Assembly: GCA_903871335.1 (NCBI GenBank) | Contig: CAIQGE010000010.1 | Span: 62,001-126,000, forward strand | DNA from: an uncultured Actinomycetes bacterium | GTDB taxonomy: Bacteria > Actinomycetota > Acidimicrobiia > Acidimicrobiales > RAAP-2 | DNA: 64,000 nt | Reading direction: 5' to 3' | In this document: one piece after another, positions 33,499-40,165 of the stretch | Position numbering within the stretch: the first letter of the stretch is position 1 | Layout: each line of letters starts with the position of its first letter | The notes under the pieces: model-generated | Databases searched by the model: none | Told to the model about the DNA's origin: nothing | The model's input: only the letters and a program-made list of their open reading frames with translations | Translations under genes and position numbers: made by a program

Positions 33499-34185
33499 TT
33501 AAATGACCGTGCTGTCCAGGACTTCGTCGACGGAACCGACGAGGCCGGTATAGAACGCTCCGAACTCGCCGTAGAGAGTGGAGGCTTCGTCGAAGCGCAT
33601 GGTGTAGACGCACTCCTTGATGTCGTCGACGTGCGCACCGAACAACGTCACACCCCACTCCCAGTCGTCCAAGCCCGTCGACCCCGTCACCACTTGCAAA
33701 ATGCGACCTTTGAATTCCCGACCCGACGCACCGTGTTGGCGCATGAGAGCCTCGCGCTCCTCGTAGGGAAGCGAGTACCAATTGTTCTGTTCCCCGCGAC
33801 GCTTGGACATCGGGTAGAAGCAAAAGGCGCGCAATCCCTCGGGTGGCAACACGGGGAAGAGGCGGTCGTTGAGCATTTTTTCCGGCATGCCCATGGCGTA
33901 TTCGGAGACTTCCGTGACCGAGACGTAGCTCTCGACCACCTCCAGACCCGCGGCCTGGATCCGAGTTTGGAATTTGCGAAGGTCCCACAAGTTGTCGCCC
34001 AGCACCATAAAACAAAGGTCAGCCTTAGCCCCGATGATGGCGGCGGTGACGACCTGAAGACCGGCGTCGATCGATTCCTGGACCGCCGTCGCCACGGCCG
34101 CACGGTCGACGTCCGCGAAGGGTCGACAGAACAGGTGGACAACATTGACGCCCCGAGCGGGGCCGAGCGGTGCGGGTGTAGTCAT
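33499..34185 (-). CDS. hemQ: Coproheme decarboxylase (HemQ/ChdC)
   Basis: The 228-residue protein belongs to the chlorite dismutase-like family and completes heme synthesis by the coproporphyrin route. It has FYPMSKRRGEQNNWYSLPY and FKGRILQVVTGSTGLDDWEWGVTLF, with the catalytic Tyr in NWYSLPY and a Trp in the heme pocket. ATG 34185 removes 42 residues of Arg/Ser-rich sequence found in the longer frame. A TAGTCT element lies 7 nt before it. It lies between a NUDIX gene and ctaG, in a haem/copper neighbourhood. Confidence 0.95.
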   Translation of the reverse strand: MTTPAPLGPARGVNVVHLFCRPFADVDRAAVATAVQESIDAGLQVVTAAIIGAKADLCFMVLGDNLWDLRKFQTRIQAAGLEVVESYVSVTEVSEYAMGMPEKMLNDRLFPVLPPEGLRAFCFYPMSKRRGEQNNWYSLPYEEREALMRQHGASGREFKGRILQVVTGSTGLDDWEWGVTLFGAHVDDIKECVYTMRFDEASTLYGEFGAFYTGLVGSVDEVLDSTVI

Positions 34186-34195
34186 AACCGCCAGA

Positions 34196-35020
34196 CTACG
34201 TGGCCGAAACCACCAATCGACCTCTACCGAGTGGGTCGACACGACGGGCTCGCCCCGACATCCACCACGCGGCAAAGAGTCCGATGGCGTAGAAACTGAG
34301 GAGTCCGTCACCGACGACGATCATCACCAGGCCCGCTTGATGCACGTCGTGCACGGCTTGGGAAGATGACAGGTTTCCCATCGTGGCCAAGGGGTGATCC
34401 ATCGACATCATGGCGACACCCGCGAAGAAGATGACGGGGATGGCGAGAGTGACGTACGCCACTCGTTGTCCGTACGTGGGCAAGTGAATCTCGGATGAAA
34501 CCGAGAGAACGAGGCGCCAATAGAAAAGCCCCACGAGGCCGAAGAAGGCCAGTTCCACGGCGTGGAGAGCGTTGTACTCCATGACCTTCGCGCCGAAGAG
34601 CGTGAGATGAAACGCCGGAATCAAGATGGCCAACATCAAAAAACATACGACAGGATTTCGCAACGCTCGAAGCGGAGTCCAAGAGGACACCCGGGCGTAC
34701 GAAGAGGTGGACACGGCCAGCACCGCGAGGGGAGCAATGACGAGCATCACCACGAGATGCGACGCCATGTGCACGGATTCGTAGCGCATGGCGTCACGTT
34801 GGAGAAAGGAACCAGCGAACCAGATGGACACCACCAAGGTGCCGAGAGCGCCGGTATTCGCTCGTCGCTGCCACCCAGGTTCCGCCGGCTGCAGCATGCG
34901 CCACGTGCAGTAACCGCCCACGGCGAGAATAATGAGACCCCACGCGGCCGGAGCGACGTGCCAGATCCCCACGTCGTGCTGCACGTCGGTTGGGAACACC
35001 AGACCTCCTCGTCGCGACAC
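34196..35020 (-). CDS. ctaG: Cytochrome c oxidase assembly protein, Caa3/CtaG type
   Basis: The 274-residue membrane protein has seven or so helices and matches the caa3-type CtaG family, which helps assemble cytochrome c oxidase and its copper. Key parts are LQRDAMRYESVHMASHLVVML, RNPVVCFLMLAILIPAFHLTL and MSMDHPLATMGNLSSSQAVHDVHQAG, with several His/Met. GTG 35020 gives a full-length start; GTG 34999, with an AGGAGG 4 nt upstream, is an alternative. It diverges from blaI, and both promoters share a long palindrome. Confidence 0.9.
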   Translation of the reverse strand: MSRRGGLVFPTDVQHDVGIWHVAPAAWGLIILAVGGYCTWRMLQPAEPGWQRRANTGALGTLVVSIWFAGSFLQRDAMRYESVHMASHLVVMLVIAPLAVLAVSTSSYARVSSWTPLRALRNPVVCFLMLAILIPAFHLTLFGAKVMEYNALHAVELAFFGLVGLFYWRLVLSVSSEIHLPTYGQRVAYVTLAIPVIFFAGVAMMSMDHPLATMGNLSSSQAVHDVHQAGLVMIVVGDGLLSFYAIGLFAAWWMSGRARRVDPLGRGRLVVSAT

Positions 35021-35024
35021 TGCG

Positions 35025-35055
35025 CATAATCAACGACGAATCGTAGTTGATTATG
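35025..35055. promoter_or_regulatory. Long palindrome between ctaG and blaI, probable BlaI operator
   Basis: CATAATCAAC and GTTGATTATG are perfect arms, with inner arms ACGA/TCGT around one central A; only one pair (positions 35035/35045) mismatches. It covers the region before both divergent starts, so one repressor could control both genes. Confidence 0.75.
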
Positions 35056-35057
35056 CT
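35052..35057 (+). promoter_or_regulatory. Leaderless -10 element TATGCT before blaI
   Basis: TATGCT is 6 nt upstream of ATG 35064 and overlaps the right arm of the palindrome, so bound repressor would cover it. Confidence 0.55.
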
Positions 35058-35063
35058 GTCGGC

Positions 35064-35426
35064 ATGAAGCGTGGACGCATGGGGCAGATGGGCGACCTCG
35101 AACGGGCCGTCATGAACAAGCTGTGGGCGACCGACGAGGCGCTGTCGGTTCGTCAGATCGCCGAGGGTTTTCCCGATCACGCGTACACCACGATTCTCAC
35201 CGTCTGTGACCGGCTGACGAAGAAGAATTTCGTCACGCGGCGCCTCGAAGGACGTTCGCACGTGTATCGACCGCGAGCGTCGCAAGAGGAGTACGTGGCA
35301 CACCTCATGGACGTTGCCCTCGACGGCAGTAGTGATCGGGCGGCGGCATTGGTGCGATTCGCCAACGTCGTCGACGACGATGAAGCCGCCATTCTTCGAG
35401 CGGCACTCCGACGACGCTCCAAATGA
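35064..35426 (+). CDS. blaI: BlaI/MecI/CopY-family repressor
   Basis: The 120-residue protein has the BlaI winged helix: MGDLERAVMNKLWATDEALSVRQI, AYTTILTVCDRLTKKNFVTR and the wing EGRSHVYRP. A C-terminal dimerisation helix follows. It overlaps the M56 gene (ATGA), the usual BlaI-BlaR pairing. Family members respond to beta-lactams through a sensor protease or to copper (CopY). Copper genes with TACTAC...GTAGTA palindromes surround it, so a role in copper/oxidase control is inferred. No CopY-type C-terminal Cys motif is present. Confidence 0.92.
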   Translation: MKRGRMGQMGDLERAVMNKLWATDEALSVRQIAEGFPDHAYTTILTVCDRLTKKNFVTRRLEGRSHVYRPRASQEEYVAHLMDVALDGSSDRAAALVRFANVVDDDEAAILRAALRRRSK

Positions 35427-36322
35427 TCACCGCCGTCGCACTCACGGGTCTCGCGCTTCTCGCCGCCGGTCCGGCAAGTTCGTCTCTGGCGCACGGTGAC
35501 TGGACACGGAGATACCCGCGTGCGGGGGTGGCGACCTGGTTCTCCCTGGCCATCCTCATTCTCACATCGCTGGTGGGCGCGGGCCTGTCGCTCACGTCGG
35601 AGAGTGCCGCACCCACCGCCAGTGGCGCAATAGGTTCGCTGATGTCCTCTCTGAGCGGGCCTCGACCGCTGGCACACCTGGATTTCGTGGGCGCTGTCGG
35701 CCTGTCGATTGCCTTCAATGTGCTGGCGGCGTCGTTCGTGATCGTTCTCCTCACGGCGCTGCGACTTCGTTCAGAGCGCGCACACCACCGGCGTATTCTG
35801 GCCGTGGTCGGCCAGCACGTCGAAGGGCGCACAGTGCTCGTGGAATACCCGGAGCCCCTCGCCTACTTCGTTCCGGGTCACGGCGGTCGCATCGTAATGA
35901 GCACTGGCATGACGCAGTCCTTTGATATCGACGAGGTCGCTGCCGTGCTCGCCCACGAGGAAGGTCACCGACGGGGCCATCACAGCTCTCTCGTTCTCCC
36001 GTTTCATTCGCTCGGCGTCCACTTTCGATGGCTCCCCTTCGCGCGTCACGCGAGCGGATGCGTCGCCGAGCTCATTGAATTCGTGGCGGATGACCGAGCC
36101 ATTCAGACGAGTGGACGCGAATCGCTCCTTCGTGCACTTCTCGCCATGGTCACGACGACTACGGCAGCACCGTCGTGCGCGCTGGGTGTCGGGGGAAGCA
36201 AAATTGGGGATCGCATCGAACGCCTTTCTTCGCCCACACCCGTTCGTCACTGGCAGTTGACGTCCCAACTAGGTGTTCTGGGAATTGCGGCTCTGTGCGC
36301 CGGCGTGTTGTGGTGCGGCTAG
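35423..36322 (+). CDS. M56-family membrane metallopeptidase (BlaR1-like without sensor domain)
   Basis: The 299-residue protein has hydrophobic helices at both ends of the chain and a zinc-protease core, VAAVLAHEEGHRRGHHS, with HExxH at 178-182. EFVADDRAI further on supplies the third ligand. It is the usual partner of BlaI, and would cleave the repressor after a signal. Unlike BlaR1 it lacks the penicillin-binding sensor domain, so the signal is not a beta-lactam by this route. It shares a 4-bp overlap with blaI. Confidence 0.9.
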   Translation: MITAVALTGLALLAAGPASSSLAHGDWTRRYPRAGVATWFSLAILILTSLVGAGLSLTSESAAPTASGAIGSLMSSLSGPRPLAHLDFVGAVGLSIAFNVLAASFVIVLLTALRLRSERAHHRRILAVVGQHVEGRTVLVEYPEPLAYFVPGHGGRIVMSTGMTQSFDIDEVAAVLAHEEGHRRGHHSSLVLPFHSLGVHFRWLPFARHASGCVAELIEFVADDRAIQTSGRESLLRALLAMVTTTTAAPSCALGVGGSKIGDRIERLSSPTPVRHWQLTSQLGVLGIAALCAGVLWCG

Positions 36323-36329
36323 GAGCCAT

Positions 36330-36896
36330 TCACATCTTCATTCCCGACATTCCGCCCCCCGGTTTCCCAAAGTAAAGGTGCGTAGGTCGAATAACGACGT
36401 GGGCGAGAAACGGTGTCAGGTGCGTCACGCCGGAGGCGTCTTGCCAGGTCAAAGTGGCCATCACGTTGCTCCCGGGCGTGAGTGACGTGCGCGATGCCAT
36501 GACCATCGCACCGAGTCCCTTGGTGGAAAGTACGGCGACCTGATGTGCGCCAAGTGGCAGAAGGGGAAGCCCGGACATCGTGGCGTTCGGATCCGTCATG
36601 TCGGGATCAACGTGGAGATACGCCGTTCCGAAACGCGGCGCGTCGACGTGCAGCAAGGTCACTGCGACATTTGTTCCATTCTCAATGCGCAGCGTGATGT
36701 CCGCCGGTTTGCCTTGCTCCGCTTGGGTGACCGTGGCGTTCACGACACGAAATTCGGTGATCGTTCGGCTGAGCGGTTGCACGAGAGGAAGGCTGGGTGC
36801 TGACGACGGTCGCGTCGCGTACACGCCCACACCGATCGCTACAAGAACGATGGCGAGCATGAGGGGAACCCAGGGACCGAGACGACGTGATGACAC
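36330..36896 (-). CDS. PCuAC-like copper chaperone, membrane-anchored
   Basis: The 188-residue protein has an N-terminal membrane anchor (PLMLAIVLVAIGVGVYAT) and a PCuAC-type beta-sandwich: ITLRIENGTNVAVTLLHVDAPRF, HVDPDMTD, LPLGAHQVAVLSTKGLGAMVMASR. It ends in a Met-rich tail, GGGMSGMKM. The His/Met set is close to the PCuAC copper site but less regular, so binding is inferred. GTG 36896 lies 6 nt after TAGTTT and 24 nt after a TACTAC box. Confidence 0.8.
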   Translation of the reverse strand: MSSRRLGPWVPLMLAIVLVAIGVGVYATRPSSAPSLPLVQPLSRTITEFRVVNATVTQAEQGKPADITLRIENGTNVAVTLLHVDAPRFGTAYLHVDPDMTDPNATMSGLPLLPLGAHQVAVLSTKGLGAMVMASRTSLTPGSNVMATLTWQDASGVTHLTPFLAHVVIRPTHLYFGKPGGGMSGMKM

Positions 36897-36906
36897 GAGA
36901 AAAAAC

Positions 36907-36920
36907 TACTCCACGTAGTA
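36907..36920. promoter_or_regulatory. BlaI-type operator before the PCuAC-like gene (36896)
   Basis: TACTAC-GT-GGAGTA on the minus strand (TACTCC-AC-GTAGTA on plus) is a near-palindrome with one mismatch. Its first base is exactly 24 nt before GTG 36896, as at the other two copper genes. Confidence 0.65.
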
Positions 36921-36982
36921 GGAGTGATCGTCGTCAGGTTGCTGGGGTGATACCGCTACCGCCCCACCGACCTGGAGACTCC

Positions 36983-37816
36983 CTAGAGCGATTCGCCGGC
37001 GACCCAGGACATGGCGTTGAGCGCGTCCGTCGGCGTCCATCCACCCTTAGTCGGGTGTTTGGCGGTGTACTTGCCGTCGCTATTGAGGAACTTGTAGAGC
37101 TGGTGGACGAGGTCGCCGTGGAATTGCGGTGCGTGTGTTCCGACAAATCGCAAGGTCCCCGCGGAGTTCACAACGAAGAAGCCGTCGGAGTGGGAAACGT
37201 CATACGTCAGTTTCTTGTGCGGCGCCATCCAATCCACACTCGCGGGAGTGTCTTCCTTGACAATTTGTGCCTGCCAGCCAAGGAAGCTCTCGACCGCGGC
37301 GGTGTTGGCATTTACGTCACCGGTTCCGACGCTGTCCGCCCCGCTCGCGTTCTTCGGCGGCACAGGGACAGTCGTCGCACCTTGTCCCGTCCAGATGGCG
37401 AAATTGCCCTTGATCATTGATCGGTAGGCCTTGATACGCGCGACGCCGTCACGGTAAGGGTCGACCGAGATTGCGACGACCCAGACGTTCTTCGCCTTGT
37501 CTTTGGTCAACCGCGATTGCAGTTGCAGCAAGTTGCCAGCGGTAAATGGACACGTGTCGGGACAGAGCGTGAGGAACGGAACAATAATGACCGTTTGCCC
37601 GAGAAGGTTGCGCAGCGACACGACGTTGCCCTGCTGATCAAGAAATTTCGCGTCCAATACCGACGCCGGTAGTGGACCGTTCACCGCCACACCCACCTTC
37701 GTTGACGGCTGGGTCGGACCACCACTTGCCCCCGCGGGGACGGCAAGTAGACCGAAGCACATGGCGGCGGCGACGCCGACCGCACTCTTCTTGAAATTGC
37801 GAGTGATGAATGTCAT
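36983..37816 (-). CDS. SCO1/SenC-family copper chaperone
   Basis: The 277-residue protein is exported (signal peptide AAAMCFGLLAVPAGASG) and has a thioredoxin-like fold with the copper-binding CPDTC (85-89) and His209 in DVSHSDGFFV, the SCO1 set that delivers copper to the CuA site of cytochrome oxidase. It carries an insertion of about 40 residues (150-190) not usual in SCO1. ATG 37816 follows TAGTAT and 6 nt, and a TACTAC box lies 24 nt upstream. Confidence 0.92.
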   Translation of the reverse strand: MTFITRNFKKSAVGVAAAMCFGLLAVPAGASGGPTQPSTKVGVAVNGPLPASVLDAKFLDQQGNVVSLRNLLGQTVIIVPFLTLCPDTCPFTAGNLLQLQSRLTKDKAKNVWVVAISVDPYRDGVARIKAYRSMIKGNFAIWTGQGATTVPVPPKNASGADSVGTGDVNANTAAVESFLGWQAQIVKEDTPASVDWMAPHKKLTYDVSHSDGFFVVNSAGTLRFVGTHAPQFHGDLVHQLYKFLNSDGKYTAKHPTKGGWTPTDALNAMSWVAGESL

Positions 37817-37823
37817 GACTTAA

Positions 37824-37840
37824 TACTACAGTCAGTAGTA
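37824..37840. promoter_or_regulatory. BlaI-type operator before SCO1
   Basis: TACTAC and GTAGTA form perfect 6-bp arms around a 5-nt spacer. On the minus strand the first base is exactly 24 nt before ATG 37816. The second arm overlaps the -10 TAGTAT. Confidence 0.75.
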
Positions 37841-37857
37841 GATAGCGTCAACTCATT

Positions 37858-38367
37858 TCATTGACGTGGTGCCGACATTCTCATGACCGAGGTCTGAAGT
37901 CCTCGCGGTTGAGGAACGACCGTGGCGGACACGGATTCGGTCCGTGTGTGCGTGTCGAGCCCCACCTGGCCAACCACGCGCAAAGTGACCACATCACCGG
38001 GTCGCAGATTGCCACGGGACCGCATCAACATGGCACCAACACCGGACGTCGTCCATCGCATCTCTTGGTGTGCACCAATTTCAATGTTCGGCAACGGAGA
38101 AACGATGGTTCCTCCGCGACACATGTCGGCGTCGTATTCGAGCATTGACGTGCGTGTCGACGGAGACGACACCGACAAGATCACCACCGGCGAACTTGTC
38201 CGATTTCGTAACTGCAGCGACACCACCGAGGCCTCACCTTTCGCCGTCGCCGTCACCGTGACTCCGGAAATTTGCAGTGGGCTCGAGGACGTCGAGGACG
38301 ACACCAGCCGGTAGGCGATTGTCGTCGCAATGAGGACCGCAACGAGTACAACTATCTTGCGCCCCAT
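37858..38367 (-). CDS. PCuAC-like copper chaperone
   Basis: The 169-residue protein has an N-terminal anchor (KIVVLVAVLIATTIAYRLV) and a PCuAC-type sandwich: VVSLQLRNRTSSPVVILSVSS, MLEYDADMCRGGT, IEIGAHQEMRW, GVGAMLMRSRG. It resembles the gene at 36330-36896 in layout, so the two are probably paralogues. The Met/His ligands are degenerate. ATG 38367 follows TACAGT and 6 nt, and lies 24 nt after a perfect TACTAC-N2-GTAGTA operator. Confidence 0.78.
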   Translation of the reverse strand: MGRKIVVLVAVLIATTIAYRLVSSSTSSSPLQISGVTVTATAKGEASVVSLQLRNRTSSPVVILSVSSPSTRTSMLEYDADMCRGGTIVSPLPNIEIGAHQEMRWTTSGVGAMLMRSRGNLRPGDVVTLRVVGQVGLDTHTRTESVSATVVPQPRGLQTSVMRMSAPRQ

Positions 38368-38377
38368 ACCGGCACTG

Positions 38378-38391
38378 TACTACGAGTAGTA
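38378..38391. promoter_or_regulatory. BlaI-type operator before the PCuAC-like gene (38367)
   Basis: TACTAC-GA-GTAGTA has perfect 6-bp arms and a 2-nt spacer; its first minus-strand base is exactly 24 nt before the start codon. Confidence 0.8.
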
Positions 38392-38415
38392 GGAGATGTA
38401 TTTCTCTACGAGACA

Positions 38416-38467: not shown

Positions 38468-40138
<1,671 letters not shown>

Positions 40139-40165
40139 CTAGCACTCACCTCGTGAGAGTGCTAG
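40139..40165. promoter_or_regulatory. CIRCE element (HrcA operator)
   Basis: CTAGCACTC and GAGTGCTAG are perfect inverted arms around a 9-nt spacer, the standard CIRCE geometry. Bound HrcA repressor would shut off groEL at normal temperature. Confidence 0.92.

Follow-up and report, generated by a model that had tools for sequence, protein, structure and literature searches.

A BlaI-family repressor and a sensor-less M56 protease appear to switch copper-loading genes of the respiratory oxidase in an uncultured Acidimicrobiales bacterium

Analysis of a 64-kb stretch of DNA (the window; positions 62001-126000 of contig C10, CAIQGE010000010.1) from the 2.23-Mb draft genome of an uncultured Acidimicrobiales bacterium, 97.5% complete, identified a gene cluster in which a repressor of the BlaI family, known from penicillin resistance, and an M56-type membrane protease without a sensor domain appear to switch the genes for copper loading of the respiratory oxidase. 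The copper-delivery genes of the cluster are preceded by copies of a palindrome, here called the box, whose true form is 17 bp long, TACTAC-N5-GTAGTA. A BlaI regulon over copper and oxidase-assembly genes, the core of an earlier note on this DNA, is supported by the sequence comparisons, and we consider it very probable that such a BlaI-box regulon exists; that BlaI itself binds the boxes is what we infer from them.

Copper-delivery genes and their boxes in the window

The gene order in the window is ctaG(-), blaI(+), M56(+), PCuAC-A(-), SCO(-) and PCuAC-B(-), followed by groEL. The identification of the three minus-strand copper genes as two of the PCuAC type and one of the SCO1 type was borne out by Pfam, and that of blaI, the M56 protease and ctaG as their neighbours by Pfam and the sequence; the oxidase copper-delivery proteins SCO, PCuAC and CtaG all scored above their Pfam cut-offs. 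The genes are:

34196..34999, minus strand: ctaG, caa3-type oxidase assembly factor (Pfam PF09678 Caa3_CtaG, E 9.6e-23; start from sequence)
35064..35426, plus strand: blaI, Penicillinase_R, BlaI/MecI/CopY-family repressor of 120 amino acids (PF03965, E 1.5e-20)
35423..36322, plus strand: M56/M48-type membrane metalloprotease of 299 amino acids (PF01435), overlapping blaI by 4 bp
36330..36896, minus strand: PCuAC-A, PCuAC-type copper chaperone (PF04314, E 2.7e-12)
36983..37816, minus strand: SCO, SCO1-family copper-insertion protein with a CPDTC motif (PF02630, E 2.9e-16)
37858..38367, minus strand: PCuAC-B, PCuAC-type copper chaperone (PF04314, E 3.6e-10)

Both ctaG and PCuAC-A start with GTG. 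The former is leadered, with the Shine-Dalgarno sequence GAGGAGG, and the latter has a Met-rich C-terminus (GGGMSGMKM).

Allowing at most one mismatch, only three boxes were present in the whole window, one before each of the copper genes as the earlier note had described; 100 dinucleotide-preserving shuffles of the window contained none (mean 0.00, maximum 0). The window boxes are real and beyond chance. The boxes and the promoter elements around them are:

36904..36920, minus strand: box TACTACGTGGAGTAGTT, one mismatch, at -24 of PCuAC-A; same position in the relative L113
36903..36908, minus strand: -10-like TAGTTT, 6 nucleotides before the PCuAC-A start
37824..37840, minus strand: box TACTACTGACTGTAGTA, perfect, at -24 of SCO
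37823..37828, minus strand: -10-like TAGTAT, 6 nucleotides before the SCO ATG
37846..37851, minus strand: -35-like TTGACG, 17 nucleotides upstream of TAGTAT (from sequence)
38378..38394, minus strand: box TCCTACTACTCGTAGTA, one mismatch, N5 register at -27 of PCuAC-B
38374..38379, minus strand: -10-like TACAGT, 6 nucleotides before the PCuAC-B ATG
35032..35048, no strand: weak box AACGACGAATCGTAGTT, three mismatches, between ctaG and blaI (putative auto-regulatory operator)
35052..35057, plus strand: -10-like TATGCT, 6 nucleotides before the blaI ATG in a leaderless layout; same in L113

The three -10-like hexamers of the copper genes stand where they had been placed, and their distance of 6 nucleotides from the start codons is that of leaderless promoters. 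A first base lying exactly 24 nucleotides before the start codon, as had been claimed for all three genes, holds strictly for two of them, SCO and PCuAC-A. PCuAC-B has two overlapping registers, the better 17-bp N5 register beginning at -27 and an N2 form, TACTACTCGTAGTA, with its TACTAC at -24. The spacer, given in the earlier note as two to five bases, is five. The SCO box lies inside a near-consensus promoter, as TTGACG is found 17 nucleotides upstream of TAGTAT, and since the boxes overlap the -10 elements, a protein bound there would block the polymerase.

The weak box between blaI and ctaG, which had been overlooked earlier, is common to both genes and forms part of a longer inverted repeat, CATAATCAAC...GTTGATTATG. 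In L113 (AACGACAAATCGTAGTT), the closest relative with the cluster (BlaI 87% identical), the half-sites of the box are unaltered, although the spacer and one flank differ.

Sites elsewhere in the same genome

The catalogue of sites with at most one mismatch included seven distinct sites in the genome, in comparison to about 0.13 expected under a first-order Markov model with the composition of the window and about 1.5 expected from base composition. A reversed-pattern control (166 matches with up to two mismatches) was an unfair background, and shuffles, permuted half-sites and the Markov estimate were used in its place. Five of the seven sites precede copper or oxidase genes, and in relatives, too, boxes stay before SCO and PCuAC genes; the reading thus withstands the objection named in the earlier note, a palindrome that in relatives occurs at random or before unrelated genes. 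Two of the five lie outside the window, on contigs C35 and C25, and therefore provide independent tests of the regulon hypothesis. The C35 site is located before a second caa3-CtaG gene (ctaG2), in a divergent promoter shared with a small membrane gene and a DUF3817 gene. The C25 site stands directly before an operon encoding a membrane-SCO fusion, CtaG, a 235-aa protein, COX2, COX1 and a 236-aa protein. Dismissal of the C25 site (L006) as a chance match overlapping the end of nusB was considered and rejected, as the wider stretch shows the SCO-CtaG-COX2-COX1 operon directly behind it.

Both PCuAC genes of the genome are boxed. The window SCO was the only SCO match in the genome by protein search; a further SCO domain is found in the C25 fusion, and both are boxed. 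Among the four CtaG genes, two have a strong box immediately before them or before their operon, and the window ctaG has the weak one. The TACTAC-N4-GTAGTA form had 0 matches in the genome, and no beta-lactamase or penicillin-binding protein (PBP) gene was found behind any of the seven sites.

The repressor and the protease

BlaI is the only BlaI-family protein encoded in the genome, and its membership of PF03965 is clear (74.1 bits, cut-off 22.6). Its closest solved relative is the BlaI of Mycobacterium tuberculosis (2g9w). With TIGR02698 it scored 32.1 bits against a cut-off of 121.95, and it has a single Cys and no CxCxxxxCxC motif. In Staphylococcus aureus, BlaR1 cleaves BlaI between N101 and F102, and the Phe is nearly invariant (PMC9834060). 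Residue F99 of the window BlaI aligns with this cleavage Phe, which is kept in 80 of 81 BlaIs.

The M56 protein has the motif HEEGH together with E219 and D223, and the residues H178, E179, H182, E219 and D223 are invariant in 32 sequences. PF05569 was matched by 27 of the 32 M56 relatives; the window protein itself matches M48 only. Its structure model (predicted local distance difference test, pLDDT, 91.5) consists of helices and a protease core, and the chain ends with the last predicted helix. A C-terminal penicillin-binding sensor domain was present neither on any of the 32 aligned relatives nor on the window protein, as the earlier note had read from the latter. The fold search placed Ste24p, an M48-type peptidase and BlaR1 on top, with a probability of 1.00 for Ste24p and BlaR1 but weak E values (> 0.001).

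In two deep-branching genomes, the BlaI-adjacent M56 proteins (L178:4691-5707 and L176:6294-7271) have short Cys-rich tails in place of the BlaR1 sensor. These tails are possible metal sensors.

Boxes in close relatives

The cluster recurs within the same genus in G239, where it is syntenic and beside groEL, in G142 and G661, where it is rearranged and near-identical between the two, and in G648. A genome of another genus, G210, has it in the order ctaG-SCO-blaI-M56. The search of relatives proposed in the earlier note found the box still before SCO and/or PCuAC in all of these (G239, G142/G661, G648 and G210), often at -24. It has been kept even though the copper proteins share only 30-60% identity with their window counterparts and the gene order is rearranged. 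G666 and G658 each have a DUF3105-blaI gene pair (family checked for G666 only) behind a one-mismatch box; further along the G666 cluster come M56, a DsbD-type protein, thioredoxin-like proteins and SCO. Most of the order-level BlaI loci (L048-L082) were set aside as other BlaI subfamilies without the copper cluster.

Two observations were made beside these comparisons. A contig labelled Candidatus Saccharibacteria (L243, CAJCJA010000041.1) has the length (23,865 bases) and the boxes of contig C41 of G142 (L047), and the label is very probably wrong. The loci L334 (7914-8360), L335 and L336, of the same genus as the window, encode BlaI-family proteins with a Cys-rich N-terminal segment, TCGNPMCSCDPCTCENCTCG..., and the box TACTACCATCAGTAGGA lies there before an operon that faces them and encodes a membrane protein and DUF5134; no M56 relative was found near these BlaI genes. 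The Cys-rich proteins look like repressors that may bind metal themselves, which would fit copper sensing.

Survey of the phylum

A contig search with the M56 protein alone gave no match, and the loci were found by a BlaI alignment search, which yielded 80 named actinobacterial loci chosen by BlaI similarity alone. The M. tuberculosis BlaI row of the alignment used (A1) is approximate, at least one residue off the solved 2g9w, and served as a search seed only. M56 was adjacent in 74 of the 80 loci, cydA was present in 37 and cydB in 36. The loci included altogether 116 boxes with at most one mismatch, 106 of them where open reading frames of blaI, M56 or cyd begin.

The N5 spacing accounted for 113 sites in 68 of 79 loci (1.06 Mb). 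In the same 79 loci, spacings of 0, 1, 3, 4, 6, 7, 9 and 10 gave no sites, the matches at spacings 2 and 8 were three-base register echoes of a TAC repeat, and 24 permuted half-sites gave zero sites apart from one permutation with a single site.

Whole-genome scans of 12 named genomes found the box before cydA in Micromonospora, Phytohabitans, Aeromicrobium, Nocardia, Rhodococcus and two mycobacteria, before blaI, and, in two mycobacteria each, before the heme A synthase gene ctaA and the gene of ATP synthase chain I. Genes for small membrane proteins and for DUF3817 and DUF4383 were also boxed, as were one for a CopZ-like HMA protein in Nocardia and one for a DUF326 protein in Phytohabitans. 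The remaining sites fell within genes or stood before genes without an obvious connection.

An independent sample of the phylum, scanned for the perfect box only, was positive in 28 of 397 genomes. It added cydABCD clusters, a DsbD-cupredoxin gene beside a heavy-metal P-type ATPase, and FtrD-like/FtsX and cytochrome c maturation (Ccm) operons. Several of these adjoin blaI-M56, and the DsbD-cupredoxin fusion and the FtrD-like and Ccm operons belong to deep branches. Box-bearing clusters include a heavy-metal P-type ATPase in G244 and G465 and a CsoR-type gene in G437; the ATPase, CsoR and Ccm genes of this sample were recognised by eye from sequence, not by profile.

Some families recurred behind the box. 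Membrane proteins of about 115 amino acids lie directly behind it in L267, L268, L277, L293 and L305 (Prauserella, Nocardia and mycobacteria); two of them were scanned and had no Pfam match. They are candidate members of the oxidase and copper regulon. The box repeatedly stands before the gene of a DUF4383 membrane protein (MKWSFAQ...), in L275 (M. lehmannii) among the mycobacteria and also in the actinobacterial loci L139, L142 and L170. DUF3817 lies behind it in M. tusciae (L306) and, together with ctaG2, in the genome of the window.

Proposed mechanism and alternative explanations

As the box recurs across the actinobacteria before respiratory-oxidase and copper genes, this branch of BlaI probably watches respiration, not antibiotics. 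Taken as a whole, the explanation that we find rather likely is a BlaI-M56 switch on the copper loading of the oxidase, with a shortage of copper or of oxidase as its signal. BlaI dimers would sit on the 17-bp box, covering the -10 region or the spacer between the -35 and -10 elements of mostly leaderless promoters, and would block SCO, both PCuAC genes, ctaG/blaI, the second ctaG and the SCO-CtaG-COX2-COX1 operon. When the copper supply or the function of the oxidase falls short, M56 would cleave BlaI before Phe99, and the copper-insertion genes would be switched on. Repression by BlaI and its relief by this cleavage are proposed because the catalytic residues of M56 are invariant and F99 is conserved, and the M56 partner probably does cleave BlaI. 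On the signal our judgement is evenly balanced; shortage of copper or oxidase is favoured because one regulon joins oxidase copper delivery, heme A synthesis, cytochrome bd and ATP synthase. Elsewhere among the actinobacteria, cytochrome bd, which is free of copper, as well as heme A synthase and ATP synthase would be under this same box and BlaI-M56 pair. A wider reading, which we put forward tentatively and would rate a little short of an even chance, is that across the Actinobacteria the sensor-less BlaI-M56 pair senses the copper-dependent terminal oxidase and derepresses copper-delivery genes, a copper-free oxidase, or both when copper loading fails, mycobacterial beta-lactamase control being a side branch.

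Several results weigh against a regulon of this kind. Two of the seven sites in the genome fit no copper or oxidase gene, one lying inside gatA and the other before a TetR gene, and no box was found at the second COX1 gene (C11) or at one ctaG (C1). The genome's own cydA (C30) also has no box, though one was expected there, so that this genome gives no sign of the oxidase-swap logic found in others. The box between blaI and ctaG is weak, which makes autoregulation less certain in this genome, and the assembly is a 39-contig draft.

The same regulon might respond to the general respiratory or redox state (quinone pool, proton motive force or oxygen) instead of copper, whenever oxidase capacity is short for any reason. 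The cydABCD, atp and cytochrome c maturation targets elsewhere in the actinobacteria handle no copper, and a link of M. tuberculosis BlaI/BlaR to redox via WhiB4 has been proposed (PMC5473688). In the window genome, however, the box is found only at copper-insertion and heme-copper oxidase genes and not at cyd, and the Cys-rich BlaI and M56 variants of relatives hint at metal sensing; we hold a redox signal to be less likely than not. A response to copper excess, that is, detoxification in the manner of CopY or CsoR, is unlikely. CopY belongs to the BlaI family, some boxed clusters contain the heavy-metal P-type ATPase or CsoR-type gene mentioned above, and the boxed DUF326 gene of Phytohabitans is copper-storage-like; yet the window targets deliver copper to the oxidase with no efflux ATPase among them, the regulon of relatives includes the copper-free cytochrome bd, and the window BlaI, with its one Cys, has no CopY-like metal motif.

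Two further explanations touch the repressor itself, and both are very improbable. An ordinary beta-lactam or cell-wall response of the BlaI-BlaR1 type, placed beside copper genes by chance, would agree with the family membership and with the repression of blaC by M. tuberculosis BlaI (PMC12565901), but it is at odds with M56 relatives that all lack the penicillin-binding sensor, with the absence of beta-lactamase and PBP genes behind the boxes examined, and with an operator spacing unlike the staphylococcal type. Another regulator might bind the boxes with BlaI as a bystander, as the pairing of BlaI and box is itself a prediction; against this, the box follows BlaI across the phylum, even before blaI, in loci picked by BlaI similarity alone, and the window BlaI has no other family member beside it in the genome.

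Comparison with known systems

The closest known system is the BlaI (Rv1846c)/BlaR (Rv1845c) pair of M. tuberculosis, with the closest solved relative of the window BlaI, a sensor-less M56 partner, and cytochrome bd and ATP synthase promoters as reported targets; in other mycobacteria the same box lies before blaI, cydA, ctaA and ATP synthase I genes. The window system has the features of such a mycobacterial-type respiratory BlaI regulon, i.e. an orthologous BlaI, a sensor-less M56 and a box before respiratory genes, orthology being judged from the best solved relative and the shared M56 and box context. It differs in that cydA has no box, so that control of cydAB was not found, and in that the copper-insertion genes are boxed. 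M. tuberculosis BlaI is described mainly as a blaC repressor, and copper chaperones, SCO and the oxidase operon are not among its targets in the papers found. Its binding to the cytochrome bd and ATP synthase promoters has been reported (Sala 2009, cited in PMC5473688), as has the lack of a sensor in its BlaR, and how this BlaR is activated is stated to be unknown (PMC5473688).

The copper-acquisition system of M. tuberculosis SigC likewise serves the copper supply of the aa3 oxidase, and genes of the BlaI regulon shift there when copper is short: expression of cyd and rv1303-rv1305 was up in a copper-starved sigC mutant, and with copper added only one of 40 changed genes was still different (PMC7924339). 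SigC is a sigma factor driving a metallophore operon, however, not a repressor and protease pair.

With the staphylococcal BlaI/MecI-BlaR1/MecR1 systems the window shares a winged-helix repressor, an adjacent HExxH membrane protease and a Phe at the repressor cleavage site. It differs in the missing penicillin-binding sensor, the respiratory targets and the N5 spacing; N4, the half-site spacing of the staphylococcal and CopY type, had zero sites in the 79 loci. CopY/TcrY belongs to the same Pfam family and also has copper genes as targets, and the window BlaI matches its model TIGR02698 weakly. The score is far under the cut-off, however, the Cys metal motif is missing, and an N5 box and a protease partner set the window apart; the cop box is TACANNTGTA. 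Judged by its protein domains and predicted targets, the window system is not a beta-lactam BlaI-BlaR1 system, and by the TIGR02698 score and the missing Cys motif it is not CopY.

Since M. tuberculosis BlaI has already been reported at the cyd and atp promoters, a respiratory BlaI is not wholly new. The literature search found no paper linking BlaI to PCuAC, SCO or CtaG, and the novelty here lies in the predicted BlaI targets: copper chaperones, SCO, CtaG and a heme-copper oxidase operon. New are also, as far as the papers found show, the putative phylum-wide N5 operator code, the apparent phylum-wide linkage of BlaI-M56 with cydABCD, and a prediction for the signal of BlaR. The window provides a clean case, in which the predicted BlaI-M56 targets are almost only copper-oxidase assembly genes and the cleavage site can be predicted, and the 17-bp operator code is readable in any actinobacterial genome. 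If the proposal is true, cytochrome bd induction by respiratory inhibitors, copper starvation and mycobacterial beta-lactam susceptibility would be tied to one switch, and an Actinobacteria-wide oxidase sensor would identify the physiological signal still missing for mycobacterial BlaR.

Neighbouring genes

A chlorite-dismutase-family gene (HemQ-like; window 33499-34185, minus strand; PF06778, E 1.6e-46) adjoins ctaG, which makes heme and copper genes neighbours, and a gene of the same family is apparently beside ctaG also in L113 (about 13081 onward). At the other end of the cluster, a CIRCE-like inverted repeat, CTAGCACTC-N9-GAGTGCTAG, lies at window positions 40139-40165 upstream of groEL (38468-40096). 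Another copy of GAGTGCTAG is found just past the repeat, and groEL is read as being under ordinary HrcA control.

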